Below, in pieces: positions 7,742-28,955 of a stretch of 64,000 bases of DNA; position 1 is the stretch's first letter; every line of letters starts with the position of its first letter. The position numbers and the translations under genes are program-made. The notes under the pieces were generated by a model that was not told the origin of the DNA, did not search any database, and saw only the letters and a program-made list of their open reading frames with translations. The stretch is from Hyphomicrobiales bacterium (GTDB lineage: Bacteria > Pseudomonadota > Alphaproteobacteria > Rhizobiales > Beijerinckiaceae), in assembly GCA_930633495.1 (NCBI GenBank), contig CAKNFJ010000002.1, positions 434,001-498,000 of the forward strand, in the 5' to 3' direction.

Positions 7742-7746
7742 GCCGG

Positions 7747-11154: not shown

Positions 11155-11163
11155 GGGTCTGCC

Positions 11164-12882
11164 TCACTTTGTGTGGAGATCGGACAATTGGATGGGCATC
11201 ATCCGCGCTCTGAGAAGCTCTGCACCCGCTCGGCCATACATAGCGCGCTTGATCGTCTTCAGTCGGTTGATCTGACCTTCCGCTTGACCATTGCTCCAAG
11301 GCAGGTCGATGGCGTTACAGACGGCGTCGATATCGCGGCGAAGGACGCGGGCAAAACGGGCCAGGAAAACCAGGCCAGAATGAATGGCATCATCAATCCA
11401 ATCTTCGAGCCTTGCCGAATTTCGGCTATGAAATATTCCGCGAAACCGCATGGATAAGCTGCGCAAAGTCGCAAAGGTATCTGATCCCTGCTTGAGGGCG
11501 TCCACTTTCCGCTCTTGATTGACGGTCAGCGCGCCGCGCGGCTTGATGCAGAGAGCAGCGGCGACAACCGGCGAGATCCAGTGGCCAGTGTGCGGATCAC
11601 GCACAGGCGCATTATCGTATGTACTGTCGACGACGCCAACCCGAGCCGGCGCCGCATCATCCTTATCCTTATCCTTATCCTTATCCGATTCCGGTCTCTC
11701 GGCGCGGCGCCAGGTTGCCAGGAGGCGTTCAAGATTGGAAAAGCTGCCGGTGTACCCGCGATGCTTGATGTCATGAAACAGATGCCGCCCACGGCGGTTG
11801 CCGTCCTTCCAACATTGGGTGAGAAAGGCTTCGAAATACAGGGGAGATGTCGGCTGCAACGCTCCCCTGCGTCGGTCGGGTGGCGTTTCAAACGTCAGCC
11901 ATTTCGCGATGCTGCGGCGGCCATATCCAGTGCGACGCGCAATCTCCGAGCAGGTCAGGCCTTCTTTGCTCAAGGCGTGCACCGTCTCGAACACCTCCTT
12001 CCGGGACTGCCTATGTGTCCGTCGAAGCTGATTGCGCAACCGCATTCCGGGCGCCTCCTCATGCAAAGCTCGATCGTCATGATCAGTCTCGATGTCCTCG
12101 TCTGGCAGCAGTGCCCTGCCTGTAGCTCGGCCGGAGAGGCTCATCTGTTCCTCGATCGCAAGACGCAGGTTCTGGAAGAGATGAAAGCGGTCAGCCACCT
12201 GAGACGCTTGCGGGGCACCTTCACGAGCAGCCTGCGCGTATAGCCCGCATCGATCTCGACTGACCACCTCAATGGAGGGATGCCGCTTCAACCATTGTGC
12301 AACGCTCGCCACGCTCCGGTCCTCGAGAATGTCCATGACCTTTCGGCGCTCGAGATCAACGATGATCGTGCCGTAGCGCCACGATTTCCTCCAACTCCAG
12401 TCATCGATACCGATGATCCGAGCGGGGGGCTCGTCGTCGATCTGTAAAGCCATGCGCTTCAAGTGCCGAAGGATGGTGTCGTCGCTGACCGGCATCCCGA
12501 GCTGGTTCATCAAGCGCTCTCCCGGGCGTCCGCCTGTGCCGTGCCCCAGAAGGCCGACTATGTTGGCGACCCTCTTTGTCCTGCGGGCGTAGGGCGAGGC
12601 AATATCCGGGATCGGGTCCGAGAATGTTTGCCGCCCGCACTGCCGATAACTGCAACGCCAGCGGCTCAACCGAAGCCTTACCGTCACTTCATTGCCTTGG
12701 ATCGGCAGGTCCTGAAGACTGCGGTACGACCAGCCGTGCCGACGTGCGCTCTGTTTCCTGCAATCTGGACAAATGCCCGAGGATGGTCCGCAAGCCGACA
12801 CAACCCAGTCACCGTCGCCGTTGGTTGCGATGCTTTGGACCTTGATGCCCGGACCGGGCGACCATTTTGATTTTGTTCTCAT
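11164..12882 (-). CDS. ISL3-family transposase (copy A)
   Basis: 572 residues from the ATG at 12882 (MRTKSKWSPGPG). An N-terminal zinc-ribbon-like part has CPDC...CSYRQCGRQTF (the zf-ISL3 type), followed by a helix-turn-helix and the DDE domain beginning IIGIDDWSWRKSWRYGTIIVD, with the DRCGLYAQAAREGAPQASQVADRFHL segment and the late Glu. There is a long insertion before the last catalytic residue, containing a (Lys-Asp)4 tract. The frame continues upstream beyond the element, without a stop, into a TniA fragment up to 13221, giving a fused 685-codon frame; the fusion is a by-product of the insertion site. It should be active in trans on copy B. Confidence 0.9.
   Translation of the reverse strand: MRTKSKWSPGPGIKVQSIATNGDGDWVVSACGPSSGICPDCRKQSARRHGWSYRSLQDLPIQGNEVTVRLRLSRWRCSYRQCGRQTFSDPIPDIASPYARRTKRVANIVGLLGHGTGGRPGERLMNQLGMPVSDDTILRHLKRMALQIDDEPPARIIGIDDWSWRKSWRYGTIIVDLERRKVMDILEDRSVASVAQWLKRHPSIEVVSRDRCGLYAQAAREGAPQASQVADRFHLFQNLRLAIEEQMSLSGRATGRALLPDEDIETDHDDRALHEEAPGMRLRNQLRRTHRQSRKEVFETVHALSKEGLTCSEIARRTGYGRRSIAKWLTFETPPDRRRGALQPTSPLYFEAFLTQCWKDGNRRGRHLFHDIKHRGYTGSFSNLERLLATWRRAERPESDKDKDKDKDDAAPARVGVVDSTYDNAPVRDPHTGHWISPVVAAALCIKPRGALTVNQERKVDALKQGSDTFATLRSLSMRFRGIFHSRNSARLEDWIDDAIHSGLVFLARFARVLRRDIDAVCNAIDLPWSNGQAEGQINRLKTIKRAMYGRAGAELLRARMMPIQLSDLHTK
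11661..11686 (-). repeat. Hexamer array, 4 units, inside transposase copy A
   Basis: CC followed by four TTATCC units (plus strand), encoding (Lys-Asp)4 in the transposase. Copy B has six units, the only length difference between the two elements. Confidence 0.9.
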
Positions 12883-12942
12883 GCACGCCAATAGCGAAGT
12901 GCCTGCTAACGATCTATTAACCACACAAAGTGAGGCAGACCC

Positions 12943-13221
12943 CTTTACAAGGAGACGCCGGTTAGAGCGCCCAACATCGGCGGTGAGGGCAGCTGACCAA
13001 TAACGCAGCCCGAACAGGTGAATCCCGGTTGGCCGCAGCGTGCGTTCCTGCTCAGGCAGGAACGTCAGCCAGAAACGCATCCGGCCCTGGGGAAGTCGAA
13101 GCGGTATCACGTCCTCGTGCTCCCGCCATACTGCAATCGGCGGCCGGCCCAAGCTGGCGTGTATCGAATGGTGATAGGAGCCGACAATGTCCAGCGCGAT
13201 GTACCGCTCGAGCTCGCGCAA
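12943..13221 (-). pseudogene. C-terminal fragment of a TniA/Mu-type DDE transposase
   Basis: About 92 codons: ELERYIALDIVGSYHHSIHASLGRPPIAVWREHE and FLPEQERTLRPTGIHLFGLRYWSAALTADVGRSNRRLLVK. This is the region between the end of the rve catalytic core and the Mu-transposase C-terminal barrel in TniA-like transposases of Tn5053/Tn552-type elements. The N-terminus is lost at the IS110 junction near 13221 and the C-terminus at the ISL3 insertion. It cannot be functional. Confidence 0.82.
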
Positions 13222-13909
13222 AGTGATGCTGGTTGGCCTACGAGAACGTGTTGTTGCCGCACAGACGCAGCTTGCGAATAGTATTCGCGGTTATGCAGCC
13301 GAGTTTGGGCTGACCGCCGCCAAAGGTATGTCTCATATTCCGCTGCTTCTGGAACGCATCAGGATCGATGACGCAATCCCTGATCTGGCACGAGACCTAT
13401 TTGCATCACTAGCAGTTGAGTTTGTGCAGTTGAATGAGCGGCGCAAGGAACTGGAGGGAAAGCTGATGGCTTGGTACAGGAACAATGAATGCTGCCGCCG
13501 TCTCGCAAAAATCCCAGGTGTCGGGCCGATTGGTGCAGCACTCCTGGTGATGAAAGCACCGGCGCCAGAATTGTTTGCATCTGGCAGACAATTTGCCGCC
13601 TGGATGGGATTAACGCCCAAGGACCATTCCACTGCGGGCAAGGTCAGGCTCGGTATTATTACGAGGGCCGGAGACGAGGTATTGCGCAAAACCTTGGTAG
13701 TGGGCGCGACGTCATTGCTTCGGCATGTGAGAGTGGGACGCGGAAGGAATGCTTCGCCATGGCTCACGGAATTACTCAAGCGCAAGGCCCCTAAACTGGT
13801 CGCTGTCGCGCTGGCCAATAAGATTGCCCGGATTGCCTGGAAGTTGATGGTGACTGGTGAGGTCTACCGCCGAGACGATGGGACAACAAAGTTGGCAACC
13901 GCAGCATAA
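13222..13909 (+). pseudogene. IS110-family transposase, 5'-truncated
   Basis: The frame has LRERVVAAQTQLANSIRGYAAEFG, then the transposase-20 domain IPGVGPIGAALLVMKAPAPELFASGRQFAAWMGLTPKDHSTAGKVRLGIITRAGDEVLRKTLVVGA with the late catalytic serine region of IS110/IS116/IS902 enzymes. The N-terminal DEDD RuvC-like domain (about 100 residues) is missing; an ATG at 13187 lies within sequence antisense to the TniA fragment and is not a native start. The 246 bases after its stop (13910-14155) hold no gene and are probably the 3' end of the same element. Confidence 0.85.
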
Positions 13910-14155: not shown

Positions 14156-14581
14156 TCATAGGAATTCTTGCAAAGAGGGGGCCGTCCACATATGGCTCTT
14201 CAACAATTTGCGCATCAGCCGAAGAGCGGCTCCCTTGTTTCTGCGGCTTTGCAGCAGAGCATCGAGAACGTAGCCGTTGGCATCGACGGCGCGCCACAGC
14301 CAGTATTTCTTGCCCTTGATCGATACGACCATCTCATCGAGATGCCATTTGTCTGCGAAGTTGCCGATCGACCGCCGCTTGAGTTGGTGGGCGAATTTCA
14401 GGCCAAACTTAGTCGTCCATTCTGAGACGGTCTGAAACGAGACGGCAATGCCGCGCTCGGCAAGCAGGTCTTCGATATCGCGCAGGCTCAGCGGGAACCG
14501 GTAATAGAGCCATACCGCATGCGCGATGATCTCGGCTGGAAAGCGGTGGCGTTTGTATCGGGCGGACGCATCGTCAGTCAT
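14156..14581 (-). pseudogene. IS6-family (IS26-like) transposase, 3'-truncated
   Basis: From the ATG at 14581 the protein reads RHRFPAEIIAHAVWLYYRFPLSLRDIEDLLAERGIAVS (helix-turn-helix) then WHLDEMVVSIKGKKYWLWRAVDANGYVLD with the first catalytic Asp. Homology ends around LRLMRKLLKSHM; the remaining ten codons to 14156 are unrelated. About the last 90 residues, with the second Asp and the Glu, are absent. It is a dead fragment. Confidence 0.88.
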
Positions 14582-15024: not shown

Positions 15025-15756
15025 TTAGTGCGATAGTATTTTCGAAAGAAACATTTGCGCTCGCTCACTTCGAGGAGTGCCGAAAAAGTCACTCTTCGTC
15101 GCATCTTCGACAATTTCGCCCTTGTCCATAAAAATTACGCGGTCTGCTACCTTCTTCGCAAACCCCATTTCGTGCGTGACAACCATCATGGTCATCCCTT
15201 CCTGCGCGAGTTCGACCATAACGTCGAGCACTTCGTTGATCATCTCAGGATCGAGTGCTGAGGTGGGTTCATCGAAAAGCATGCAAATCGGGTCCATGAC
15301 AAGCGCACGCGCAATCGCCACGCGCTGCTGCTGGCCTCCCGAAAGCTGGCCAGGGAATTTTTCCGCGTGCGCCTTCAGCCCAACTCGATCAAGGAGTTTC
15401 ATAGCCTTTGCCATCGCCTCATCGCGGCGCCGGCCAAGTACCTTCATCTGACCCAGGCAGAGATTCTCATAAATTCGGAGGTGGGGAAAAAGTTCGAAAT
15501 GTTGGAAAACCATACCCACCCGGGAGCGAAGCTTCGTAAGATTCGTCTTCTTGTCAGTAACTTCAACCCCGTCGAGAACAATTCTCCCCTCTTGGATGGG
15601 CTCCAAGGCATTAACGCATTTAATGAGCGTTGATTTCCCGGACCCGGATGGACCGCAAATCACGACAACTTCGCCCTTGTTGACGTTTGTCGAACAATCC
15701 GTCAGCACGCGAAAAGACTGCCCGTACCATTTGCTAACATGGCTGAGTTCGATCAT
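15025..15756 (-). CDS. gltL: Acidic amino acid ABC transporter ATP-binding protein (GltL-like)
   Basis: 243 residues from the ATG at 15756, preceded by AAGGAG at 6 bases; the frame is open to an ATG at 15819, but the 21 extra residues are not family-like and that codon lacks a good ribosome site. Walker [10 protein letters not shown] (35-43), Q-loop in [11 protein letters not shown], signature [10 protein letters not shown], Walker [13 protein letters not shown], and the H-loop VVTHEMGFA are all present. It energises uptake through GltJK. Last gene of the gltIJKL operon; the last 150 bases before the IS66 remnant (14866-15024) hold nothing recognised. Confidence 0.93.
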
Positions 15757-15823
15757 GGCTGCTCCTTCGAGCGGACGCGAGGTGTTGGGGGACACTTGGG
15801 ATTGGATCGTAGCAGACATTTGA

Positions 15824-16516
15824 TCACCGTATGATTGCTGTGCGCGCTTCGAGGCGCTTGACCAGGAAGGAGGCGGCGAATGAGATCACGAAGTATATGA
15901 TCGCCGCGAAGAGATACATTTCCACAAGGCGACCATCGCGCTGTGCGACTTTAGAAGCAGCACCGAGGAAGTCTGTCAGCGAAATGACATATACGAGAGA
16001 TGTATCTTGAAAGAGGATGATCGTTTGCGTCAACATGACCGGCAGCATATTGCGGAATGCCTGCGGCAGAACGATATAGCCCATCACCTGTGAGTAGTTT
16101 AACCCTATTGCATACCCGGCGCCGGTCTGTCCGCGAGGGATCGACTGGATTCCGGCTCGCATGATTTCTGAGAAGTATGCTGCCTCGAAAAGGGTGAACG
16201 TGATGAGTGCCGACGCAAATGCGCCCACGGCGATCGGCTGGCTCGCTCCGATGAGCCAGGCCCCAATATAGGGGACGAGGAAGTAGAACCAGAAAATTAC
16301 AAGTACGAGCGGAAGAGACCGCATCAGGTTCACGTACCCGCCGGCGAGTGTCGACAAGGCTTTGATCGAGCTAAGCCGCATGAGTGCTAGGAGGGTTCCA
16401 AGCACGATCCCCCCGATGGTGGCGAGCGCGGTCAGTAGCAGCGTGAAACGCATGCCATCCCAGAATAGATAGGGAAGAGAACGGGCGATGACGTCGAAGT
16501 CAAAACTATAGAACAT
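15824..16516 (-). CDS. gltK: Acidic amino acid ABC transporter permease (GltK-like)
   Basis: 230 residues with about five membrane segments and the EAA loop [40 protein letters not shown] of the HisMQ-type permeases. [19 protein letters not shown] closely follows the GltK pattern. It forms a heterodimer with GltJ in the inner membrane. It begins two bases after the gltJ stop, so the two are translated together. Confidence 0.92.
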
Positions 16517-16518
16517 CG

Positions 16519-17250
16519 TTAACGCCCCGCAGTATAGCCAGGTACAGCAACCCGGTGTTCAAGGTAGAGCATCCCGATCGTTACCAGGATGTTGACAGTG
16601 AGATAAAGGACAGTCGCGACGGTGAACGCCTCGAATATCTGAAAGGTGAATTCCTGCATGGCTCGGGCGCGGGCAGTGAGTTCTACCAGTCCGATCGTGA
16701 GTGCCACCGACGTATTCTTGATCGTGTTCAGGAACTCAGACGTCAGTGGAGGCAGGATGATCCGAAATGCCATTGGCAGCAGAACATATCGATAGGTTTG
16801 CGGTGTCGTAAGCCCGATTGCGGCACCCGCCAGCTTCTGACCACGGGGCAGTGAGCTGATGCCCGCACGGAGCTGTTCCGCGACTCGTGCCGACATATAA
16901 AAGCCGAGCCCCAAGACCGTCGTCCAGAACGCCGAATTTGGCAACGCTTTCAACCAGTTGCCCATGCTTTGCGGTAGCAGTTCAGGCAACACGAAATACC
17001 AAAGGAAAAGCTGTACAAGGAAAGGAATGTTGCGAAACAATTCCACATATGCGCTCGCAATCCTTTGGGCAGGCCCGGACGGCATCGTCCGCATCACCCC
17101 GACGACAAGACCCAGTGCCAGCGCAAGAAGCCATGCACCTACTGCGGTGACTAGCGTTACTTGCAGACCCCGCAACAGCATTTCCAAGTAACTACCCGAC
17201 CCATCCAGCGATTGCTGGAAGAGAATTCCCCAGTTCCAGTTATAGTTCAT
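16519..17250 (-). CDS. gltJ: Acidic amino acid ABC transporter permease (GltJ-like)
   Basis: 243 residues from the ATG at 17250, which follows GGAGGG; the frame begins earlier at a TTG (17271) with no ribosome site. The start MNYNWNWGILFQQ and the segments YVELFRNIPFLVQLFLWYFVLPELLPQ and EQLRAGISSLPRGQKLAGAAIGL (EAA loop) match GltJ. Five or so membrane helices. Partner of GltK. Confidence 0.92.
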   Translation of the reverse strand: MNYNWNWGILFQQSLDGSGSYLEMLLRGLQVTLVTAVGAWLLALALGLVVGVMRTMPSGPAQRIASAYVELFRNIPFLVQLFLWYFVLPELLPQSMGNWLKALPNSAFWTTVLGLGFYMSARVAEQLRAGISSLPRGQKLAGAAIGLTTPQTYRYVLLPMAFRIILPPLTSEFLNTIKNTSVALTIGLVELTARARAMQEFTFQIFEAFTVATVLYLTVNILVTIGMLYLEHRVAVPGYTAGR

Positions 17251-17272
17251 AGAGCCCTCCGTACGCTCCAAG

Positions 17273-17301
17273 CCTCATGGCGACGTTCTTTCGCCATGAG
17301 G
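17273..17301 (-). terminator. Hairpin between gltI and gltJ
   Basis: CCTCATGGCGA (17273-17283) and TCGCCATGAGG (17291-17301) form a perfect 11-bp stem with a 7-nt loop, 12 bases beyond the gltI stop. Such hairpins between a binding-protein gene and its permease genes usually protect the 3' end of the binding-protein message or partly stop transcription, giving an excess of binding protein. Confidence 0.75.
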
Positions 17302-17313
17302 CAGTTGTTGGAA

Positions 17314-18225
17314 TTATTGCAGGTAGGAGGCCGTGTCGGCGGAGTCGGAAGGGTTCTCGAACGCGCGCTTCAATGCCGGGTCAAGCGGGACGTTCAGGTT
17401 AAGCCCGCGGGGCGGGATGGCCTGGTTGAACCACTTGTTGTAGATATCCAGCATCTCCGGGCTCTTGTAGAGCGCGGCGGTCGCGTCATCTACGAGTTCC
17501 TTGAACTCCGCATCGTCGCGACGGAGCATGATTGCATAGGGTTGGGGATTGGAAAATGCCTCCTGCGAGATTGCATAGCCGGACGGATCGCGCGACCCGG
17601 CAACGAGCGAGGCCAGCAGAATGTCGTCCATCACGAATGCTGCCGCACGACCCGTTTCGACCATAAGGAACGCTTCCGCATGGTCGTTTGCGGCAATGAT
17701 GTTCATGCCGAGTTGCTGCGCCGTATTCACTTCGTTCAGCTCTTGGATATTGACCGTTCCGGATGTCGACACGACTGACTGGCCTTTGAGGTCGGCAATC
17801 GAGCTGAGATTGCTCGATTTCTTGGCAACGAACCTGTTTGCAGTCAGAAAGTATGTATTGCTGAACGCCACCTGCTTCTGGCGCTCTGCAGTATTGAAGG
17901 TTGAGCCGCACTCGAGATCAACGGTCCCGTTTGCGATCAACGGGATGCGCGTTGCCGAAGTAACGGGGTTAAATCGCACCTCAAGCTTATCAAGCTTGAG
18001 CCGCTCTTTGACGGCGTCGACGACCTTCAGGCAGATATCAACAGCATAACCGACCGGCTGCTGCTTGTCGTCGAGATATGAGAAGGGCACGGACGAGTCG
18101 CGGTTGCCGACCGTGATCACTCCTGTGTCCTTGATCTTTTTCAGCGTTCCGGTGAGATCATCTGCCGACGCACCACCACACATTGCTGTCATGACGACTG
18201 CAAAAGCACAAAGTTTCTTCAACAT
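17314..18225 (-). CDS. gltI: Periplasmic acidic amino acid-binding protein (GltI-like)
   Basis: 303 residues from the ATG at 18225, preceded by GGAGGAATACG; the frame runs on to 18375 but that part is leader. The N-terminus MLKKLCAFAVVMTAMCGGASA is a Sec signal. The mature part keeps the GltI pattern: VITVGNRDSSVPFSYLDDKQQPVGYAVDIC, RIPLIANGTVDLECGSTFNTAERQKQVAFS, and NKWFNQAIPPRGLNLNVPL. GltI binds glutamate and aspartate; a relative beside bhc genes may bind beta-hydroxyaspartate or a D-acidic amino acid (inference). First gene of the operon, divergent from the LysR gene. Confidence 0.92.
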   Translation of the reverse strand: MLKKLCAFAVVMTAMCGGASADDLTGTLKKIKDTGVITVGNRDSSVPFSYLDDKQQPVGYAVDICLKVVDAVKERLKLDKLEVRFNPVTSATRIPLIANGTVDLECGSTFNTAERQKQVAFSNTYFLTANRFVAKKSSNLSSIADLKGQSVVSTSGTVNIQELNEVNTAQQLGMNIIAANDHAEAFLMVETGRAAAFVMDDILLASLVAGSRDPSGYAISQEAFSNPQPYAIMLRRDDAEFKELVDDATAALYKSPEMLDIYNKWFNQAIPPRGLNLNVPLDPALKRAFENPSDSADTASYLQ

Positions 18226-18532
18226 CGTATTCCTCCAGAGGTTGCAATTAGAAAGAGATAGCTGGCTGCTGGTTTCTTGGTCGCGTTGCAGACCCATGTG
18301 GCGGATGTTCAATATCCAATTGGTACGTTGCCTTGCGACTGCTCCCAAACAGAAAAGGCACCGGCCACGACACACCGCCTCACAACACGGTCAGTCGCAT
18401 GTGACGTTCACGCAAACCATTTTGACCGTCGCTGCCTCTTCCTAGAGGGTATAATAAATGCGATAGGTGACTGCCGATCAAATGCATTATAGCGGCCGAT
18501 CTATGTGCAAATATTATATGATGGAGAAGATT
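18226..18532. promoter_or_regulatory. Divergent control region of gltIJKL and the LysR regulator
   Basis: About 300 bases without a gene. TATAAT at 18450-18455 is a good -10 for the rightward LysR gene. TCAAATGCATTAT at 18478-18490 and CAAATATTATAT at 18508-18519 recur in nearly the same form in the control region of the RidA-DadA-bhc genes (25141-25183), so they are candidate LysR operator parts. Confidence 0.5.
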
Positions 18533-19447
18533 ATGCTGAAGCATAGGCAGGTGGAGGCGTTCCGCGCGGTCATCATCAGCGGTTCAGTGTCGACTGCGGC
18601 GGACATTCTCGGAATCACTCAACCTGCGGTCAGTCGGCTCGTGAAAGATTTGGAATACGAGACGCGCTTGAATTTGTTCGAACGCTCTGGAGGTCGACTT
18701 GTTGCAACCGGCGACGCGATGGCCCTCTATCGCGAGATCGACCGCTCATTTGTTGGACTTGAGCGTATCGCCGACTTGGCGCGCGATTTGAGAGAAAGAC
18801 GAGGAGGTTCTCTGCGCATCGCGGCACTGCCGGGACTAGCAAACGGGTTCCTGCCGGCCTTTGCCGCAGGTTTTCTTGCCAAAAGGCCATCGTTAAATAT
18901 GTCGCTTCACGGCATGAATTCTCATTTCGTCCTCGAATGGATCAGCACCGGCCATTGTGATCTCGGAATCGTCGAGAACACGCAACTCACCAACGTCACC
19001 ATCGAAGAACTGCCACCCTGCGATATGGTAGCGGTGCTCCCTCTCCAACACCGGCTCGTGGAACGCGAGCGAATCGTTCCCGAGGACTTTGACAATGAGG
19101 ATTTCATCTCACTCATACAGCCGTCGGTAATGCATGTCATGGTCGATGCCATAATGCGCGAGCGAGGAATAATCAGACGTATTAAGGCTGAAACTCCACT
19201 CTCCATGATTGTTTGTGGTATGGTTTCAGCAGGATTCGGCGTTTCGATCGTCGATCCGTTTACTGCCGATAGATATTCTTCATCTTTGGTAGTTCGGCCA
19301 ATCGATCCGCCAATCTCTATCAATTGGACAATCGTGCTACCGACGCACATAAAAGCGTCTTCGATTACGAACGAGTTTATAGTCGAGTTTCGAAAAAGCT
19401 TTCGAAATTTTCTTTCGGAGCGATCGACTTCAGCAAAGCTTGCCTAG
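18533..19447 (+). CDS. LysR-family transcriptional regulator (OccR/NocR-like)
   Basis: 304 residues from the ATG at 18533, preceded by GGAGAAGATT; upstream ATGs (18467, 18503 and others) lack a site. The N-terminal winged helix reads KHRQVEAFRAVIISGSVSTAADILGITQPAVSRLVKDLE, close to the opine and amino acid regulators OccR and NocR. The effector domain starts about residue 95 (GSLRIAALPGLANGFLP). It lies between the gltIJKL operon (divergent) and bhcD (convergent), so it most likely senses the imported amino acid or a pathway intermediate and controls both units. Confidence 0.87.
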   Translation: MLKHRQVEAFRAVIISGSVSTAADILGITQPAVSRLVKDLEYETRLNLFERSGGRLVATGDAMALYREIDRSFVGLERIADLARDLRERRGGSLRIAALPGLANGFLPAFAAGFLAKRPSLNMSLHGMNSHFVLEWISTGHCDLGIVENTQLTNVTIEELPPCDMVAVLPLQHRLVERERIVPEDFDNEDFISLIQPSVMHVMVDAIMRERGIIRRIKAETPLSMIVCGMVSAGFGVSIVDPFTADRYSSSLVVRPIDPPISINWTIVLPTHIKASSITNEFIVEFRKSFRNFLSERSTSAKLA

Positions 19448-19598
19448 CCGTATGTTATCCTCATCGTCATGAACGACTGATATCGCGAAAATGGGTTTGG
19501 GGGCACATTCTTCAGCGCGGTCACTACAGAGTGCGGGCTGATCTGGCAATCCAAGTCCGACGTCAAGCCATCTCCCTCAATGTCAATCGCGCGCAGAA

Positions 19599-20564
19599 CT
19601 AAAGCTCCACTTCCAGGGCGAGCCCTCGCGCCCGAGCAATATCCACCGCAACTGACGCCACCGCGAGATCCTGGAGGCCAACGCCCGTGCCGTCGAACAA
19701 CGTGATCTCCTCCGGCGAGGTCCGCCCCGGCGCCAGGCCGGCGATCACCGCGCCGAGCGGCGTGATGTCGCCGGTCGCGATCAATCCCTGCGCCACCGCG
19801 TGCTGCGCCTCACCGATGGTGACGGACTGTTCAACCTCATCGGCAAAGAGCCGAGCGCGTGGGAAAAGAGCCGCCTCTACTTCCTGCTTCCCTTTAGTGT
19901 CGGTCCCCATGCAAGCGAGATGGGTTCCTGGGCGAATATGCCCGGAAAGAAGAATCGGTGCGAAGCTGGATGTGATCGTGATGATGACATCGGCCTGTGC
20001 CCCGAGTTGTGGCAGGTCGACCACCTCGAAAGGCAGGCCGAGTTCGACCGCCGTGTCGGCCAGCCGCGACAGCATTTCGGGGTGCAAGTTCCAACCAACC
20101 ACCTTGTCGAATTTGCGCGCCCGCACTGCGGCGCGCATCTGGAAGGCGGACTGGTGACCGGCCCCGACCATGCCGAGCACGCGGGCGTCGGGGCGGGCCA
20201 GATGCTTGATCGACACCGCCGAGGCGGCGGCCGTGCGCAGCGCGGTCAGCAGGTTACCGCCGACCGCCGCCTTGATCCGGCCGGTGTCCGGGTCGAACAG
20301 CAGCACCGTGGACTGGTGGTTGGTCAAGCCCTTCGCCATGTTGCCCGGCCAGTAGCCGCCCGCCTTGACCCCAAGGACGAGCCCCGCACTGTCGAAGCCA
20401 GCCTTGAAGCCGTAGAGCGCGTCGGCATAGCCGATCGCCTCTCGGATGACGGGGAAGTTACGGGCCTCGTCTCGCGCCATGGCAGCGAAGACGCTTTCGA
20501 TGGCTTCAAAGACAGCGGCCTCGCTCATGAGGTCGGAGATCAGACGCTCCGGTACGATGATCAT
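19599..20564 (-). CDS. bhcD: Iminosuccinate reductase of the beta-hydroxyaspartate cycle
   Basis: 321 residues from the ATG at 20564, preceded by GGAGGAGTC; the longer frame to 20699 is antisense leader. Belongs to the ornithine cyclodeaminase/mu-crystallin family, with KAGGYWPGN, GGNLLTALRTAAASAVSIKHLA and the NAD(P)-binding VLGMVGAGHQSAFQMRAA. The sequence follows Paracoccus BhcD throughout (for example MGTDTKGKQEVEAALF and FDGTGVGLQDLAVASVAVD). BhcD reduces iminosuccinate to aspartate with NADH. Third gene of bhcB-bhcC-bhcD. General ornithine cyclodeaminase annotation would be too broad. Confidence 0.9.
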   Translation of the reverse strand: MIIVPERLISDLMSEAAVFEAIESVFAAMARDEARNFPVIREAIGYADALYGFKAGFDSAGLVLGVKAGGYWPGNMAKGLTNHQSTVLLFDPDTGRIKAAVGGNLLTALRTAAASAVSIKHLARPDARVLGMVGAGHQSAFQMRAAVRARKFDKVVGWNLHPEMLSRLADTAVELGLPFEVVDLPQLGAQADVIITITSSFAPILLSGHIRPGTHLACMGTDTKGKQEVEAALFPRARLFADEVEQSVTIGEAQHAVAQGLIATGDITPLGAVIAGLAPGRTSPEEITLFDGTGVGLQDLAVASVAVDIARARGLALEVEL

Positions 20565-20622
20565 GGATTGACTCCTCCAAGAATAACACCGGAGCGCCCA
20601 GTTGCGCTTCGCAGGTACGTTC

Positions 20623-21786
20623 TCAATACGCCTTGCCGCGTGCCGACACCGGCCAGACCGTCTCGACCTTACCGTTGCGCACCCCGACATACCAGTCATG
20701 GACGTTGCAGGTCGGATCGCAATGGCCGGGCACCAGCCTGAGCTTGTCGTTGACCTTCAGCACGCCCTTGGGGTCATCGATCACACCGTGCTCGTCGCTG
20801 CACTTGATGTATTTCACGTCGTCGCGGCCGTAGATGAAGGGCAGGCCGCTGTCGACCGATTGCGCCTTGAGGCCGGCGTCGCAGATGGCGCGGTCGGGCT
20901 TGGCGTGGCTCATCACGCTGGTCAGGATGAACAGCGCGTTCTCCCATTCGCCCTTGTCGATGCGGTGGCCATCCTTATCGAGGATGCGGCCGTAGTCAGC
21001 GTCCATGAAGGCGTAGGAGCCGCATTGCAGCTCGTTATAGACGCCCGAGCCCGTCTCGAAATAATAGGAGCCGGTGCCGCCGCCGGAAACCAGTTCCGGC
21101 TCCAGCCCGACAGCCTTCAGGCCCTCGACGGCGTCCTTGACCATGGCGATCGCCGCGTCGAGCTTCTCCTTACGCGCCTCATAGCTGTCGATGTGCTGCA
21201 TCGCGCCCTGGTAGGCTTGGATGCCGGTGAACTTGAGGCCCGGCGCCGCGTCGGCGGCCTGGGCGATCTTCACGACGGCGTCGGTCGAGGTGACGCCGCA
21301 GCGGCCGGCGCCGCAGTCGATCTCCACGAAGATTTCGAGCTGCGTGCCGTGCTTTTCGGCGGCAGCAGACAGGTCAGCGATGTTGGCAACGTCATCGACG
21401 CAGACGATGATGCGCGAGCCGAGCTTGGGCAGGCGGGCCAGCCGGTCGATCTTGGCCGGGTCGCGCACCTGGTTCGACACCAGCACGTCCTTGATGCCGC
21501 CGCGCACGAAGACTTCCGCCTCGCTGACCTTCTGGCAGCAGACGCCGACCGAGCCGCCGAGCCTCTCCTGCAGTTTCTGCACGTCAACCGACTTATGCAT
21601 CTTGCCGTGGCTGCGATGGCGCATACCGTTCGCCTTGGCGTAATCGCCCATCTTGCGGATATTGCGCTCCAGCGCGTCGAGGTCGAGGATCAGGCAGGGC
21701 GTCTGGATCTGGGATTCGTCCATGCCGGGGACCGCCGGCACGTCGAAACCGACGTCGAGTTGTTCAGTTTGAGTCGTCGCGTTCAT
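20623..21786 (-). CDS. bhcC: Beta-hydroxyaspartate aldolase
   Basis: 387 residues from the ATG at 21786, preceded by GAGGAGAAGAGC; the same length as Paracoccus BhcC. PLP enzyme of the D-threonine aldolase/D-serine dehydratase fold III group: RHRSHGKMHKS with the cofactor lysine (about 62), FVEIDCGAGRCGV, SGGGTGSYYF, and the metal site PGHCDPTCNVHDWYVGVRNG at the C-terminus. It joins glyoxylate and glycine to (2R,3S)-beta-hydroxyaspartate, or cleaves it. It starts 10 bases after the bhcB stop. Confidence 0.93.
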   Translation of the reverse strand: MNATTQTEQLDVGFDVPAVPGMDESQIQTPCLILDLDALERNIRKMGDYAKANGMRHRSHGKMHKSVDVQKLQERLGGSVGVCCQKVSEAEVFVRGGIKDVLVSNQVRDPAKIDRLARLPKLGSRIIVCVDDVANIADLSAAAEKHGTQLEIFVEIDCGAGRCGVTSTDAVVKIAQAADAAPGLKFTGIQAYQGAMQHIDSYEARKEKLDAAIAMVKDAVEGLKAVGLEPELVSGGGTGSYYFETGSGVYNELQCGSYAFMDADYGRILDKDGHRIDKGEWENALFILTSVMSHAKPDRAICDAGLKAQSVDSGLPFIYGRDDVKYIKCSDEHGVIDDPKGVLKVNDKLRLVPGHCDPTCNVHDWYVGVRNGKVETVWPVSARGKAY

Positions 21787-21796
21787 GCTCTTCTCC

Positions 21797-22744
21797 TCAG
21801 TTCCACGGTAATTTGTCGAGATCCACATTGCCGCCCGTCACGATCACGCCGACGCGCTTGCCGGCAAAGACATCAGGGTTCTTCAGGATGGTCGCCAGCG
21901 GCACGGCGCTGGACGGCTCCATCACGATCTTCATGCGCTTCCAGATCAGCTTCATCGCGTCGACGATCTCCTGCTCGGAAGCCGTCAGGATGTCGGTGAC
22001 GTTGTTCTTCACGAAATGCCAGGTCAGTTCCTTCAGCGGCACTTTCAGGCCGTCGGCGACCGTTTCTGGCGCGTCGTCGGCGATGATGCGGCCGGCCTTG
22101 AAGCTACGGTAGGCGTCGTCGGCCTGCTCGGGCTCGGCGGCGTAGATCTTTACGCCGGGCGCGAGATTGGAGAGCGTCAGGCAGCTTCCCGACACCATGC
22201 CGCCGCCGCCAATCGGCGCGACCACGGCGTCGAGACCGTCGACCTGCTCGATCAACTCGGCAGAGCAGGTCGCCTGCCCGGCGATGACACGATGGTCGTT
22301 ATAGGGATGCACGAATTCCGCGCCGGTCTCGGCAACAACCTCGGCAAAGACGGCCTCACGCGACGAGGTTGACGGCTCGCATTCGACGACACGACCGCCG
22401 TAGCCCCGGACCGCATCCTTCTTAGCCTGCGGCGCGGTGCGCGGCATCACTACGGTGCAGGGAATGCCGCGCCGACCAGCTGCATAGGAAAGGCAGGTTC
22501 CGTGATTGCCGGACGAGTGCGTTGCAACACCCTTCTTCGCCTGCTCGTCGTTCAGGCCAAACACCGCGTTCGACGCGCCGCGCGCTTTGAAGGCCCCAGC
22601 CTTCTGAAGGTTCTCGCACTTGAAGAAGAGTTCGGCGCCAGCAAGTCCATTGATGAATGTCGATGTGAGAACGGGTGTGCGATGAATATGGGGTTCGATT
22701 AAGGCTCGTGCTGCAAGCACGTCGGTAAGATTCGGAATGTACAT
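21797..22744 (-). CDS. bhcB: Beta-hydroxyaspartate dehydratase
   Basis: 315 residues from the ATG at 22744; a TTG six bases upstream lies nearer AAGGAG and cannot be excluded. PLP fold type II, serine/threonine dehydratase-like: FFKCENLQKAGAFKARGASNAV with cofactor Lys53, SSGNHGTCLSYAA, and the phosphate loop PIGGGGMVSG. It follows Paracoccus BhcB (AEPEQADDAYRSFKAG, SAVPLATILKNP, VGVIVTGGNVDLDKLPWN). It dehydrates beta-hydroxyaspartate to iminosuccinate. First of the three bhc genes and 15 bases from the RidA gene upstream. bhcA, the aspartate-glyoxylate aminotransferase that normally precedes it, is absent. Confidence 0.92.
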   Translation of the reverse strand: MYIPNLTDVLAARALIEPHIHRTPVLTSTFINGLAGAELFFKCENLQKAGAFKARGASNAVFGLNDEQAKKGVATHSSGNHGTCLSYAAGRRGIPCTVVMPRTAPQAKKDAVRGYGGRVVECEPSTSSREAVFAEVVAETGAEFVHPYNDHRVIAGQATCSAELIEQVDGLDAVVAPIGGGGMVSGSCLTLSNLAPGVKIYAAEPEQADDAYRSFKAGRIIADDAPETVADGLKVPLKELTWHFVKNNVTDILTASEQEIVDAMKLIWKRMKIVMEPSSAVPLATILKNPDVFAGKRVGVIVTGGNVDLDKLPWN

Positions 22745-22759
22745 ATCCAAGCGCGCTCC

Positions 22760-23185
22760 TTACGCTGTAATCGCTGCGGCGCCTCGATCGGTATCGCTCG
22801 GATCGAGAGCAACAGCATCAAGTTCGATGAGGTATCCATGATGAAGCGCCGGCACTGGAACGACCGACCGGGCAGGACGCGCTTCACCGAACGCCTTGGC
22901 ATATGCTGCGTTGAAGCTGCTCCAATGCTCGACGCCGACGATGTAAGCTGTGACTTTCACGACATGAGAAGGCGTCGCACCAGCCGCCTCGAGTACGGCC
23001 AGCAAATTCCGGAGAACGAGACTGGCCTGGTTATCGAAGAGATCGTCAGATTGCTCCGACTGGCCTTCTGGTTTGATCGGAAGCTGACCGGAAACATGAA
23101 TGAATCCACCCGCTCGGGCCGCCTGACTGTAGTGACCCAAAGGCTTCGGGGCGTGACTCGTTAATATGTGTTCTATTTGCGCCAT
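22760..23185 (-). CDS. RidA/YjgF-family imine deaminase-like protein
   Basis: 141 residues from the ATG at 23185, preceded by GGAGACG; the frame runs back to 23305 over the end of the dadA-like gene without a ribosome site. Family marks: LGHYSQAARAGGFIHVSGQLPI, NLLAVLEAAGATPSHVVKVTAYI, and ARPARSVVPVPALHHGYLIELDAVA with the conserved Arg. RidA proteins hydrolyse reactive imines/enamines formed by PLP dehydratases and amino acid oxidases. Between the DadA-like gene and bhcB it would handle iminosuccinate or other imino acids. Confidence 0.88.
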   Translation of the reverse strand: MAQIEHILTSHAPKPLGHYSQAARAGGFIHVSGQLPIKPEGQSEQSDDLFDNQASLVLRNLLAVLEAAGATPSHVVKVTAYIVGVEHWSSFNAAYAKAFGEARPARSVVPVPALHHGYLIELDAVALDPSDTDRGAAAITA

Positions 23186-23264
23186 TTCGCGTCTCCGAGG
23201 TGATTGCGAGGTGCAGATTGATCTTGACACCGGCTCTGCGCTGTACTCACGACCGCGTAAGTAC

Positions 23265-24560
23265 TTAACTTGCCGGACCCGTTTGCTTGGATTTGCCAAT
23301 ACCAAAGCGGTTTGGTGCGAAGGGCGAAATGTCGATTGAGGTCTTTTCGCCTGCGAGGAGCTCTGAGACGAGCGTTGCGGTCATCGGCGCCCCTGTCATG
23401 CCGAGATGACCATGGCCGAAAGCATAGATTACGTCGGGTGTCCGGGTTGCCCGGCCAATCACGGGGAGCGAATCCGGGATGCTCGGCCGGAACCCCATCC
23501 ATTTGGAATATCGTTCTTCAGAACTCGCAGGCGCGAGGGCTGGAAGAAGTTTTCGAGCGTGCGTATAGAGCACATGCGCACGTTTCCAGTTAGGAACGGC
23601 TGTGAGCCCAGCGAACTCAACCGTACCCGCCACGCGAAGCCCCATTTCCATAGGTGTCGCGATGAATTTTCCTGACGCATCGGTCGTCGGAATGCGTGGA
23701 GCGGCTTCCGGATTCGCGATGACGATATGATATCCACGTTCGGTATCGAGCGGGATGTCATCGCCTAGCGAATTAGCAAGTGATTTCGAGTGTGCGCCGG
23801 CTGCGACAACCGCTGCATCAACGGCCAGAACGCCGTTCGTGGTTGTAATGCCTTTAAGCGCCCTACCTTCAGTCTCAAAGCCGATGACACGCGCAGATAC
23901 GAATTCGCCACCGTTCGCGATAAAACGCCGAAACAAGAGGGTCACGAGCCCTTGCGGATTAATCGTGTGACCGTTCTCTTCTATAAGAATGCCCTTGGTA
24001 AACGCATGCGACAAGTTCGGATCGAAATCCCGCAACGCATCGGCGCTGAGGATCTGCGTGCGAACACCGTTGAGACGCCGCAGTTCCCAACCTCCGCGGT
24101 CCTTGGCGAAGTCTGCTTCTCCACGATATACGGTCAGATGACCTTCATGGCGGATCAGATGGCTCGCATCAGCCTCCTCCGCCAATGACTTGATCAGAGG
24201 CACCGTGGACTTGATGAGATTGCGGAGTGCTTTCGCCTGCTCCTTCACCTTGTTTGGTCTTCCGGCTAACAGAAAGCGAATCAACCAGGGCATGATGGTT
24301 GGAAAATAGCTGAACCGGATTGACAACGGCCCCATCGGGTCAAGGAGCCACTTCGGTACGCTCGTCAAGTTTCCCGGCATGGACATAGGGACGACGGCTG
24401 AGCCGTTGAAGCATCCGGCATTCCCAAACGATGCACCTTCGCCAGGAGGGTTCGGGTCAATCAAGGTGACTTTGAATCCGCGGCGCTGAAGCATCAGCGC
24501 CGTGCATACGCCGACGATTCCGGCTCCAGCGATGCCTACTTTTTTGTGGTTCTCAGACAT
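23265..24560 (-). CDS. DadA-family D-amino acid (or glycine) dehydrogenase, FAD-dependent
   Basis: 431 residues; GGGAGCATCCT precedes the ATG. The N-terminal dinucleotide fold is KVGIAGAGIVGVCTALMLQRRGFKVTLIDPN (GxGxxG), followed by GEGASFGNAGCFNGSAVVPM as in D-amino acid dehydrogenase DadA, and near the end GFRPSIPDSLPVIGRATRTPDVIYAFGHGHLGMTGAP. Such enzymes oxidise D-amino acids, sometimes glycine or D-aspartate-like substrates, to imino acids, passing electrons to the respiratory chain. Flanked by two RidA-like genes and upstream of bhcBCD. Substrate not predictable from sequence. Confidence 0.88.
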   Translation of the reverse strand: MSENHKKVGIAGAGIVGVCTALMLQRRGFKVTLIDPNPPGEGASFGNAGCFNGSAVVPMSMPGNLTSVPKWLLDPMGPLSIRFSYFPTIMPWLIRFLLAGRPNKVKEQAKALRNLIKSTVPLIKSLAEEADASHLIRHEGHLTVYRGEADFAKDRGGWELRRLNGVRTQILSADALRDFDPNLSHAFTKGILIEENGHTINPQGLVTLLFRRFIANGGEFVSARVIGFETEGRALKGITTTNGVLAVDAAVVAAGAHSKSLANSLGDDIPLDTERGYHIVIANPEAAPRIPTTDASGKFIATPMEMGLRVAGTVEFAGLTAVPNWKRAHVLYTHARKLLPALAPASSEERYSKWMGFRPSIPDSLPVIGRATRTPDVIYAFGHGHLGMTGAPMTATLVSELLAGEKTSIDISPFAPNRFGIGKSKQTGPAS

Positions 24561-24636
24561 AGGATGCTCCCGCGGAGCCGACAGTCTCTCGCTGCCTAGC
24601 CACCGTTTCGCGGTAGGTGATAAAATTCGGCGTGCC

Positions 24637-24984
24637 TTACCTTGCTGCGGTAACGACGATTTCGATCAGGACGTCCTGGCCAAGATCTGAAACCCCTATC
24701 GTCGCACGCGCGGGCAAATCCTGTGCGTCGAGCCAAGAAGTCCAGACGTCGTTCATCTCTTGCTTCAGGTTCATGTCAGTGATGAACAAGGTCGCGGAAA
24801 TTAGTTTCGTCTTGTCGGTTCCCGCTTCTGCGAGGAATTTGTCGAGCTTGGCACAAACTTGCGTCGTTTGGGCCCGCATCGAGGCGCCCTTGAGTTCATC
24901 GGCCAGCACGCCACCGAAGTAAATCACATCAGCATATTCAACTGACCGATGCATGATTGGTGTTCTGTCTCGACGTGTGATCAT
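24637..24984 (-). CDS. Second RidA-family protein
   Basis: 115 residues from the ATG at 24984, preceded by AGGAGCAAGACG; the longer frame to 25017 lacks a site. VIYFGGVLADELKGASMRAQTTQVCAKLDKFLAEAGTDKTKLISATLFITDM and LPARATIGVSDLGQDVLIEIVVTA fit the YjgF/RidA fold. It diverges from the first RidA (22760-23185), so the two probably act on different imines. First gene of the RidA-DadA-RidA-bhcBCD series, transcribed from the AT-rich region upstream. Confidence 0.87.
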   Translation of the reverse strand: MITRRDRTPIMHRSVEYADVIYFGGVLADELKGASMRAQTTQVCAKLDKFLAEAGTDKTKLISATLFITDMNLKQEMNDVWTSWLDAQDLPARATIGVSDLGQDVLIEIVVTAAR

Positions 24985-25733: not shown

Positions 25734-26585
25734 CTAAGCAGGGAACCATTCATTTGCTATATGGTGGCATGGGATACCATTGACCATGGGATCATGTGTC
25801 ACTATCCCGAATATGCCATCGATAGCTGCATCAACCGTTCCACGAACGCCGTACAACTGTTTTGCGGCTACAATTGTTCGACGAAATAGAGCGCCGGGAT
25901 CGAGCAGCGTCGTCGCACAGAGCGACATCGCCTGCTGCGAACTGGTGAGGACGAGAACGCGATCGGCCGTGGCACGCGCGCCGCGCTCCAGATTGACATA
26001 GTCGGCGATGGCTCTCCGGAGCGGTTCGGCGCCCTGAGGATCGCCGTGCAGAAGGGCTTTCGTGCCGTAGTCCTTGAGGACCTGCCGCTCCAGGCGCTCC
26101 CACAATTGCAGCGGAAACTCCCGTGTTTCCGGTATGCCATGCGTGAACGGCCGTGGCGCGAGGATGTCACGCACGCCGCCGCCGCTGAACATGGCTGCTC
26201 CACGCTTGCTGAGGTTCGGGGCCTGGTTGCGCAACAGCGAATCCCGCCGCGATCTGCGCTGGCCGGGCTGAAATGCCGAGATCTCGGCCACGAAACTGCC
26301 GCTGCCGACTCGCCGCTCGATGAACCCTTCGGCGTGAAGCTGGATATAGGCCGCCTCGATCGTATCACGCGACACGCCAAGTGCCTTGGCAAGCCCGCGG
26401 GTGGCCGGCAACGGCTTGCCCGGTCCCAGCACGCCGTCGAGGATCAACTGCCGGATCGCCCGTTGTATCCGGGCGTGCAGCGGCATCGTCGCATTGGCAG
26501 GATGGGCCATCCAGGCCTGCACGGATTCGAGCTGTGAGTGCTTGAACAAATGGCCTGCCCTTCGCAAGATAATTGGCAGGAACAA
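25734..26585 (-). pseudogene. MocR-type GntR regulator, 3'-truncated
   Basis: The N-terminal GntR winged helix is clear (MPLHARIQRAIRQLILDGVLGPGKPLPATRGLAKALGVSRDTIEAAYIQLHAEGFIERRVGSGSFV), followed by a linker and the first part of an aminotransferase-like domain (LLHGDPQGAEPLRRAIADYV, VLTSSQQAMSLCATTLLDPG). Homology stops after LLDPG near 25895, where about 250 residues with the PLP lysine should follow; the last 50 codons are unrelated. The start is uncertain (TTG at 26585 or ATG at 26510). Divergent from the benE remnant, which it may once have controlled. Confidence 0.8.
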
Positions 26586-26972: not shown

Positions 26973-27135
26973 TTTGCGTCCGATCTTGCTTGATCCTGGA
27001 ATTGTATCTGGCAATTCGCCCAAAAAATGCAACCAGTCACAGTGCTGCTGAAGCAAACTTTGGCTCCATGCACCCAAAAGAACAAGGGTGTTTGCCGAAG
27101 ACATCAGTGAGAAATGACAATAATCCGGGTCTGCC

Positions 27136-28866
27136 TCACTTTGTGTGGAGATCGGACAATTGGATGGGCATCATCCGCACTCTGAGAAGCTCTGCACCCG
27201 CTCGGCCATACATAGCGCGCTTGATCGTCTTCAGTCGGTTGATCTGACCTTCCGCTTGACCATTGCTCCAAGGCAGGTCGATGGCGTTACAGACGGCGTC
27301 GATATCGCGGCGAAGGACGCGGGCAAAACGGGCCAGGAAAACCAGGCCAGAATGAATGGCATCATCAATCCAATCTTCGAGCCTTGCCGAATTTCGGCTA
27401 TGAAATATTCCGCGAAACCGCATGGATAAGCTGCGCAAAGTCGCAAAGGTATCTGATCCCTGCTTGAGGGCGTCCACTTTCCGCTCTTGATTGACGGTCA
27501 GCGCGCCGCGCGGCTTGATGCAGAGAGCAGCGGCGACAACCGGCGAGATCCAGTGGCCAGTGTGCGGATCACGCACAGGCGCATTATCGTATGTACTGTC
27601 GACGACGCCAACCCGAGCCGGCGCCGCATCATCCTTATCCTTATCCTTATCCTTATCCTTATCCTTATCCGATTCCGGTCTCTCGGCGCGGCGCCAGGTT
27701 GCCAGGAGGCGTTCAAGATTGGAAAAGCTGCCGGTGTACCCGCGATGCTTGATGTCATGAAACAGATGCCGCCCACGGCGGTTGCCGTCCTTCCAACATT
27801 GGGTGAGAAAGGCTTCGAAATACAGGGGAGATGTCGGCTGCAACGCTCCCCTGCGTCGGTCGGGTGGCGTTTCAAACGTCAGCCATTTCGCGATGCTGCG
27901 GCGGCCATATCCAGTGCGACGCGCAATCTCCGAGCAGGTCAGGCCTTCTTTGCTCAAGGCGTGCACCGTCTCGAACACCTCCTTCCGGGACTGCCTATGT
28001 GTCCGTCGAAGCTGATTGCGCAACCGCATTCCAGGCGCCTCCTCATGCAAAGCTCGATCGTCATGATCAGTCTCGATGTCCTCGTCTGGCAGCAGTGCCC
28101 TGCCTGTAGCTCGGCCGGAGAGGCTCATCTGTTCCTCGATCGCAAGACGCAGGTTCTGGAAGAGATGAAAGCGGTCAGCCACCTGAGACGCTTGCGGGGC
28201 ACCTTCACGAGCAGCCTGCGCGTATAGCCCGCATCGATCTCGACTGACCACCTCAATGGAGGGATGCCGCTTCAACCATTGTGCAACGCTCGCCACGCTC
28301 CGGTCCTCGAGAATGTCCATGACCTTTCGGCGCTCGAGATCAACGATGATCGTGCCGTAGCGCCACGATTTCCTCCAACTCCAGTCATCGATACCGATGA
28401 TCCGAGCGGGGGGCTCGTCGTCGATCTGTAAAGCCATGCGCTTCAAGTGCCGAAGGATGGTGTCGTCGCTGACCGGCATCCCGAGCTGGTTCATCAAGCG
28501 CTCTCCCGGGCGTCCGCCTGTGCCGTGCCCCAGAAGGCCGACTATGTTGGCGACCCTCTTTGTCCTGCGGGCGTAGGGCGAGGCAATATCCGGGATCGGG
28601 TCCGAGAATGTTTGCCGCCCGCACTGCCGATAACTGCAACGCCAGCGGCTCAACCGAAGCCTTACCGTCACTTCATTGCCTTGGATCGGCAGGTCCTGAA
28701 GACTGCGGTACGACCAGCCGTGCCGACGTGCGCTCTGTTTCCTGCAATCTGGACAAATGCCCGAGGATGGTCCGCAAGCCGACACAACCCAGTCACCGTC
28801 GCCGTTGGTTGCGATGCTTTGGACCTTGATGCCCGGACCGGGCGACCATTTTGATTTTGTTCTCAT
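27136..28866 (-). CDS. ISL3-family transposase (copy B)
   Basis: 576 residues from the ATG at 28866. It is the same protein as copy A apart from a (Lys-Asp)6 instead of (Lys-Asp)4 tract and a few substitutions (for example Val for Ala in LLRVRMMPIQ close to the C-terminus). Zinc-ribbon, helix-turn-helix and DDE parts are intact, so the element should be functional. Confidence 0.92.
   Translation of the reverse strand: MRTKSKWSPGPGIKVQSIATNGDGDWVVSACGPSSGICPDCRKQSARRHGWSYRSLQDLPIQGNEVTVRLRLSRWRCSYRQCGRQTFSDPIPDIASPYARRTKRVANIVGLLGHGTGGRPGERLMNQLGMPVSDDTILRHLKRMALQIDDEPPARIIGIDDWSWRKSWRYGTIIVDLERRKVMDILEDRSVASVAQWLKRHPSIEVVSRDRCGLYAQAAREGAPQASQVADRFHLFQNLRLAIEEQMSLSGRATGRALLPDEDIETDHDDRALHEEAPGMRLRNQLRRTHRQSRKEVFETVHALSKEGLTCSEIARRTGYGRRSIAKWLTFETPPDRRRGALQPTSPLYFEAFLTQCWKDGNRRGRHLFHDIKHRGYTGSFSNLERLLATWRRAERPESDKDKDKDKDKDKDDAAPARVGVVDSTYDNAPVRDPHTGHWISPVVAAALCIKPRGALTVNQERKVDALKQGSDTFATLRSLSMRFRGIFHSRNSARLEDWIDDAIHSGLVFLARFARVLRRDIDAVCNAIDLPWSNGQAEGQINRLKTIKRAMYGRAGAELLRVRMMPIQLSDLHTK
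27633..27670 (-). repeat. Hexamer array, 6 units, inside transposase copy B
   Basis: CC followed by six TTATCC units on the plus strand, 12 bases longer than in copy A. It encodes alternating Lys-Asp in a charged loop of the transposase. Replication slippage is the likely source. Confidence 0.9.
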
Positions 28867-28955
28867 GCACGCCAATAGCGAAGTGCCTGCTAACGATCTA
28901 TTAACCACACAAAGTGAGGCAGACCCCTTTATCTCTGGATCGAACGGGAATTCCC

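Follow-up and report, generated by a model that had tools for sequence, protein, structure and literature searches.

Why would a bacterium carry bhcB, bhcC and bhcD, three genes of the beta-hydroxyaspartate cycle, but not bhcA, the product of which supplies that cycle with glycine? The question is raised by a 64,000-nucleotide stretch of a Hyphomicrobiales genome (contig CAKNFJ010000002.1, positions 434,001 to 498,000; hereafter the window, in whose coordinates features are given), where the three genes follow a flavoenzyme gene and two genes for Rid-family hydrolases and lie close to those of an amino acid importer. Our answer, held with modest confidence, is that the group is probably a mobile operon for the breakdown of iminodiacetate (IDA), or of an N-carboxymethyl amino acid much like it, whose oxidation would itself yield the glycine that BhcA makes elsewhere.

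The bhc genes and the missing bhcA

All three Bhc proteins encoded in the window exceed the NCBIfam cut-offs for members of the beta-hydroxyaspartate cycle. On the minus strand lie, in order, BhcB, the beta-hydroxyaspartate dehydratase (21797..22744; NF045641, 602.1 bits against a cut-off of 550), BhcC, the 3-hydroxy-D-aspartate aldolase (20623..21786; NF045642, 772.3 bits against 690), and BhcD, the iminosuccinate reductase (19599..20564; NF045643, 582.1 bits against 500), the last of which matches the solved iminosuccinate reductase 6rqa across its full length (E 1.5e-139). A search of the whole genome (5,944,473 bases) with the NCBIfam model for BhcA returned a single match, at 78.5 bits where the cut-off is 650; in the neighbourhood of the operon (locus L127) there was none, nor was there a match to the IclR-type regulator BhcR at E 1e-10. 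An earlier, sequence-only reading of this DNA had described the same three genes in order without bhcA, had suggested a new use of Bhc enzymes, and had named a bhcA gene elsewhere in the genome as the finding that would speak against it. The gene order stands, no such gene was found, and the set does look like a new use. Compared with the bhcABCD and bhcR cycle of Paracoccus denitrificans, BhcB, BhcC and BhcD are likewise present and in the same order, but BhcA and BhcR are absent, a LysR regulator and an importer are found instead, and the route proposed here would not be a cycle, as glycine and glyoxylate would share one precursor.

A second bhcBCD set, also without a BhcA match, lies about 294 kb away on the same contig (C2, 758,792 bases), its BhcC at C2:748381-749538 scoring 750.8 bits; it stands behind genes for a class-III aminotransferase and an aldehyde dehydrogenase resembling succinate-semialdehyde dehydrogenase (L125, C2:738000-757500). 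This locus also contains a shortened remnant (47%) resembling glyphosate oxidoreductase (GOX) and large open reading frames (ORFs), transposase-like by eye.

Most of the bhcC loci surveyed do have bhcA. In a survey of named genomes, restricted to the best 80 of at least 582 confirmed BhcC loci, BhcA was matched within the stretch covered in 73, was missing from five (L010, L025, L056, L060 and L083), and could not be judged in two that end too near bhcC (L034 and L046). It was missing as well from three of the 12 plasmid records with bhcC examined (L090, L099 and L134, a copy of L099). On a BhcC tree the loci lacking bhcA are scattered, with four changes (a number equally low in 162 of 500 shuffles), and so bhcA was lost or omitted more than once. 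Their other contents vary. Directly before bhcB, L060 (Rhodobacteraceae KLH11) has a D-amino acid dehydrogenase of the PRK12409 type (7746-8996; 647.9 bits, cut-off 494), and the same strain has another cluster (L061), which bears bhcA and encodes an identical BhcC. No clear partner enzyme appears among the ORFs scanned in L056 and L083, the latter having an ATP-binding cassette (ABC) permease. Plasmid locus L090 (2.1-10.1 kb) has bhcBCD behind genes for an N-formylglutamate amidohydrolase, a glutamine-synthetase-like protein, and aldehyde and alcohol dehydrogenases, a set that, there and in L130 and L131, has the look of a gamma-glutamyl pathway by which an amino alcohol would become glycine.

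A flavoenzyme resembling glyphosate oxidoreductase

Before bhcB on the same strand lie the genes for RidA1 (22760..23185; 141 aa; PF01042; TIGR00004, 108.6 bits against a cut-off of 106.25), an FAD-dependent flavoenzyme (23265..24560; 431 aa; PF01266) and RidA2 (24637..24984; 115 aa), so that the order read downward from 24984 is RidA2, flavoenzyme, RidA1, bhcB, bhcC, bhcD. All are intact ORFs, and the intergenic gaps from RidA2 to BhcD measure 10-79 bases, a spacing as in one operon. RidA2, a Rid-family imine/enamine hydrolase, was recognised because it is 69% identical to the product of an L099 gene annotated as RidA, and homologues occupy the same place in L010 (74%) and L025 (68%).

The sequence-only reading had taken the flavoenzyme for a DadA-like dehydrogenase. 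Its membership of the D-amino acid oxidase (DAO) family holds, but it falls below both NCBIfam cut-offs for DadA (217.5 of 383 and 134.2 of 494 bits) and resembles GOX instead. GOX, from Ochrobactrum, was first reported in a 1995 patent on glyphosate-tolerant plants; the 430-aa reference enzyme is reported to use both IDA and glyphosate without making H2O2, and its biological role has been described as unresolved (PMC12452685). The flavoenzyme of the window is alike in length and family, and of the nine published GOX-group motifs (M1 to M8 and a proline motif) it keeps seven strictly, M1 and M8 having one departure each, although about 2200 proteins, and not GOX alone, belong to the group that these motifs define. 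At the three positions altered in the crop version GOXv247 (S84, K153 and H334) it has S, K and H. Closest to it is a cluster of 37 sequences, the representative of which has three differences, followed by matches at 79-85%, the best named alphaproteobacterial one being from Mesorhizobium sp. Root157 (82-83%), while a Pseudomonas putida homologue is 69-71% identical. These alpha- and gammaproteobacterial values resemble the ceilings published for homologues of GOX itself when near-copies above 97% are removed (a 'homology percent' of 36-84% in alpha-, 37-56% in beta- and 37-69% in gammaproteobacteria; PMC12452685). To judge from published length, motifs and identity ranges, the flavoenzyme is very likely GOX or a near-copy; GOX is known as a herbicide-degrading enzyme.

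In a Foldseek search with the AlphaFold model of the flavoenzyme (mean pLDDT 89), glycine oxidases come first among solved folds, and R358 aligns with the arginine of their WxGxRP stretch and is invariant across 45 aligned sequences. This likeness favours the glycine-only route of the sequence-only reading, which in detail would run as follows: the flavoenzyme would oxidise glycine to iminoglycine, RidA would release glyoxylate, and BhcC would add a second glycine on the way to aspartate; a pair of RidA proteins would suit free imino acids, and BhcA would be unneeded if glycine were in excess. One part of that proposal, the condensation of flavoenzyme-made glyoxylate with glycine by BhcC, is retained in our own, but glycine is not the likeliest substrate: the enzyme lies far under the cut-off for the glycine oxidase ThiO (119.2 of 250.8 bits), the importer is of a type for acidic amino acids, which glycine is not, and the substrates reported for GOX are IDA and glyphosate (PMC12452685). 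We therefore think it unlikely that glycine alone feeds the operon. Nor is the flavoenzyme an orthologue of IdaA of Chelativorans BNC1 (6pxs), which shares its DAO fold and would share the proposed reaction; IdaA ranks 26th in the Foldseek search, behind other families, with a TM-score of 0.70 and 19% identity. The window differs from that system further in that the products would enter bhcBCD, and in a genome without an NtaA-family monooxygenase over the cut-off.

Enzymes of this clade are rare. At E 1e-140, and with the window's own genome included each time, matches were obtained in 4 of 298 genomes of the family, 1 of 398 of the phylum and 3 of 385 of the class; the five others are 51-56% identical, and these samples hold no further GOX-clade locus beyond the window. 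In the surroundings of the five (9-15 kb each), four have no bhc gene, apart from a 36% BhcB-like match in one of them, L138; the fifth is L137, whose incomplete bhc set is described below. The alphaproteobacterial L138 and L139 have their flavoenzyme relatives (51-54%) directly before genes of a polar amino acid ABC importer, with no BhcC match, an arrangement that may represent an older importer-dehydrogenase pair. On plasmids of Agrobacterium vitis and Ancylobacter (L101 and L102), relatives at 53-54% occur with LLM monooxygenases, flavin reductases and D-arabinono-lactone-oxidase-like genes, and no bhc match.

A recurrent cassette and its bhcB and bhcC genes

The order RidA-flavoenzyme-RidA-bhcB-bhcC, without bhcA, is found in four loci: the window, L010 (Mesorhizobium sediminum), L025 (on a contig catalogued as Spirulina subsalsa) and L099 (a Phaeobacter plasmid), with copies of the last in Roseovarius (L134) and on a Yoonia plasmid seen among the matches listed. 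Identity to the flavoenzyme of the window is 75% in L010, 75% in L025 and 73% in L099; the enzymes of L025 and L099 are 96% identical to one another and are counted as one lineage, giving three lineages in all, or three loci in two lineages besides the window.

The bhc genes of these loci come from two sources, each without bhcA. BhcB and BhcC of L025 and L099 are 94-97% identical to those of a complete cluster in Paracoccus aerius (L030; 96-97% for L025's own), in a locus, L025, whose flavoenzyme and RidA proteins are 75% and 68% identical to those of the window. The BhcC of the window groups with that of L010 (support 100/98), and a single clade for the bhcBC of all four loci is rejected with a p-AU of 0.0111, which is moderate evidence, because this grouping was put to the test with the tree already known and the bootstrap was not yet stable. 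GC content shows a seam between the bhc genes and the flavoenzyme cassette, bhcBC(D) lying at 62-66% and the RidA and flavoenzyme genes at 53-57% in the three loci measured; the LysR and importer genes lie at 52-56% in the window and L025, and the LysR and transporter genes of L099 at 58-61%. To judge from these sequences, bhcB and bhcC, without bhcA, either entered the flavoenzyme cassette on two or more occasions or were exchanged within it. Either course suggests that the cassette needs BhcB and BhcC but not BhcA.

The retention of BhcC bears on the other proposal of the sequence-only reading, namely that beta-hydroxyaspartate or D-aspartate is taken up from outside and consumed. The binding protein of the importer is of the acidic-amino-acid type, and for hydroxyaspartate BhcB and BhcD would be enough, but BhcC, which would then be idle, is kept with the flavoenzyme in all four loci, and bhcD, needed to reach aspartate, was not found in L025 or L099; D-aspartate, for its part, requires no Bhc enzyme, and the flavoenzyme lies under the DadA cut-offs. 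We consider this proposal very improbable and have set it aside. A shade less probable still is an assembly of unrelated operon pieces by insertion sequence (IS) elements, a view to which IS copies on both flanks, uneven GC content, and importers and regulators that differ among relatives all lend something, but which leaves the same five-gene order to have arisen by chance in four loci, three lineages and with two sources of bhcBC.

The operon is probably horizontally mobile. Two IS copies, ISL3-like by eye (11155..12947 and 27127..28931), bracket the whole of it in direct orientation and are 99.2% identical, with 22-base inverted ends. No target-site duplication was seen at the ends of the two copies, and recent transposition as a composite unit is thus not supported. 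In the plasmid collection, the sole match to a 24-kb stretch of the window is a plasmid of Bosea sp. ANAM02 (75% covered, 85% identity), which points to a Bosea-like host. Transposase-like ORFs and a shortened GntR/MocR-like ORF, identified by eye, also flank the operon (13187-13909, 14156-14581 and 25734-26585).

The proposed pathway and the ratio of glyoxylate to glycine

Downstream of bhcD, a gene for a LysR-type regulator (18521..19447, plus strand; PF03466/PF00126), where canonical clusters carry the IclR-type BhcR, separates the bhc genes from those of the importer, all on the minus strand: a GltI-like periplasmic binding protein (17314..18225; PF00497), GltJ-like and GltK-like permeases (16519..17250 and 15824..16516; both PF00528) and a GltL-like ATPase (15025..15756; PF00005; scanned with two additional codons at its start). 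The sequence-only reading had placed the importer, the regulator and the RidA proteins correctly, as Pfam and NCBIfam scans and, for RidA2, homology confirm. The GltI-like and GltK-like proteins do not reach the NCBIfam cut-offs for GltIJKL (292.2 of 375 and, at best, 253.4 of 318 bits), and by its sequence the importer appears to be of the same glutamate/aspartate type without identity with GltIJKL being implied. The binding protein aligns over 271 residues with its top PDB match, 2ia4/2vha (E 1.3e-75), keeping stretches that are presumably ligand contacts in those structures. Among the related loci, L025 has a GltIJKL-type importer and a LysR regulator 74% identical to that of the window; L010 has an 86% identical LysR, but its ABC parts include binding proteins of the NMT1 type, and L099 has an unrelated LysR and a DctP-type tripartite ATP-independent periplasmic (TRAP) system.

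In the pathway that we propose, the importer would take up a dicarboxylic amine, IDA or a close N-carboxymethyl amino acid, and the GOX-like flavoenzyme would oxidise one of its C-N bonds, passing electrons to the respiratory chain; the resulting imine would then break, aided by RidA, into glycine and glyoxylate in a 1:1 ratio. BhcC, which we infer to act in the direction of condensation, would join the two as beta-hydroxyaspartate, BhcB would convert this to iminosuccinate, and BhcD would reduce iminosuccinate to L-aspartate. BhcA, whose sole job is to make glycine from glyoxylate, would be dispensable because IDA oxidation yields exactly the two substrates of BhcC in equal amounts. The net effect would be to rearrange IDA into its isomer aspartate (both are C4H7NO4), which would make a central amino acid out of a useless one.

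The distribution of bhcA can be read in the same terms. All four clusters examined beside glycolate/hydroxy-acid oxidase or allantoin genes keep bhcA, and the cycle makes glycine through BhcA because glycolate or allantoin give glyoxylate alone. Nitrilotriacetate (NTA) yields IDA plus one extra glyoxylate, or two glyoxylate to one glycine overall, a surplus for which BhcA would be required. Aminobacter aminovorans KCTC 2477T is reported to degrade both NTA and IDA (PMC5146447). Plasmid pAA02 of A. aminovorans (L100) has an NtaA/DmoA-family monooxygenase (504.5 bits, cut-off 279.7), a flavin reductase, a 57% relative of the flavoenzyme, RidA and bhcABCD; it thus shares the flavoenzyme, RidA, bhcB, bhcC and bhcD with the window and differs in its bhcA, monooxygenase, flavin reductase and transporter, and its bhcA would fit a surplus of glyoxylate from NTA. 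NTA as the substrate in the genome of the window was rejected, the NtaA family reaching only 27.7 bits genome-wide. That EDTA and NTA are glyoxylate sources is already known (PMC11323563, mBio 2024), but we found no mention there of bhc genes lacking bhcA. Searches of open papers, mostly at the level of the first lines of abstracts and with subscription papers and patents outside their scope, gave nothing that ties GOX or IDA to bhc genes.

The same stoichiometry bears on another N-carboxymethyl amine, such as glyphosate, strombine or other N-carboxymethyl amino acids, which would give glyoxylate and a different amine, with glycine drawn from the pool. GOX is reported to be active on glyphosate (PMC12452685), and the genome carries the C-P lyase gene PhnI on contig C1; however, a source of glyoxylate alone requires BhcA or another supply of glycine, the four clusters examined beside such sources retain bhcA, and none of the ten operon proteins scanned was recognised as the product of a phosphonate gene. 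Such a substrate seems to us about as doubtful as glycine.

Several observations weigh against assigning the operon to IDA, or against parts of the argument. IDA is mainly man-made, whereas the plasmids of L099 and its copies are marine. The IDA oxidase of solved structure, IdaA, shares only 19% identity with the flavoenzyme. The acidic-amino-acid importer is confined to the window and L025, L010 and L099 having other systems. In L010 the flavoenzyme match covers residues 1-236 only, so that the gene appears to be interrupted as recorded there. No bhcD was found in L025 (an 11.2 kb contig) or L099 (25.3 of 31.9 kb), and because of this iminosuccinate may leave there as oxaloacetate, with ammonia released by RidA or water. 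The tree would also be explained if bhcBC had been replaced within a single old operon rather than captured twice. As for the proposed link with stoichiometry, the flavoenzyme of L100 is divergent from the bhc genes, and L137, from a genome of the window's family with an NTA-type set (relative to L100, monooxygenase 95% with part covered, flavin reductase 69%, flavoenzyme 88%), has within 15 kb bhcD and part of bhcC but no BhcA or BhcB match, which counters the rule; the cluster looks decayed. L130 and L131 have the glutamine-synthetase-like, aldehyde and alcohol dehydrogenase set of L090 ahead of complete bhcRABCD, retaining bhcA behind apparent glycine-source genes and so countering a simple rule for that set.

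The wider proposal is a more tentative one, which we would put at somewhat short of probable: that the native pathway of GOX is an importer-to-aspartate operon isomerising IDA through beta-hydroxyaspartate, and that bhcBC constitute a 'glycine plus glyoxylate' sink captured repeatedly by mobile operons, with bhcA kept only where glyoxylate is in surplus. If so, a well-known enzyme of crop biotechnology would gain a natural job, for which this locus offers a concrete test. The operon would also represent a route that conserves carbon and nitrogen while turning a fragment of aminopolycarboxylate chelators into an amino acid linked to the tricarboxylic acid cycle, useful for chelator clean-up and for the engineering of bhc pathways. 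The rule that it suggests, that bhcA is present or absent according to how much glyoxylate the substrate yields relative to glycine, lends itself to a survey of genomes.

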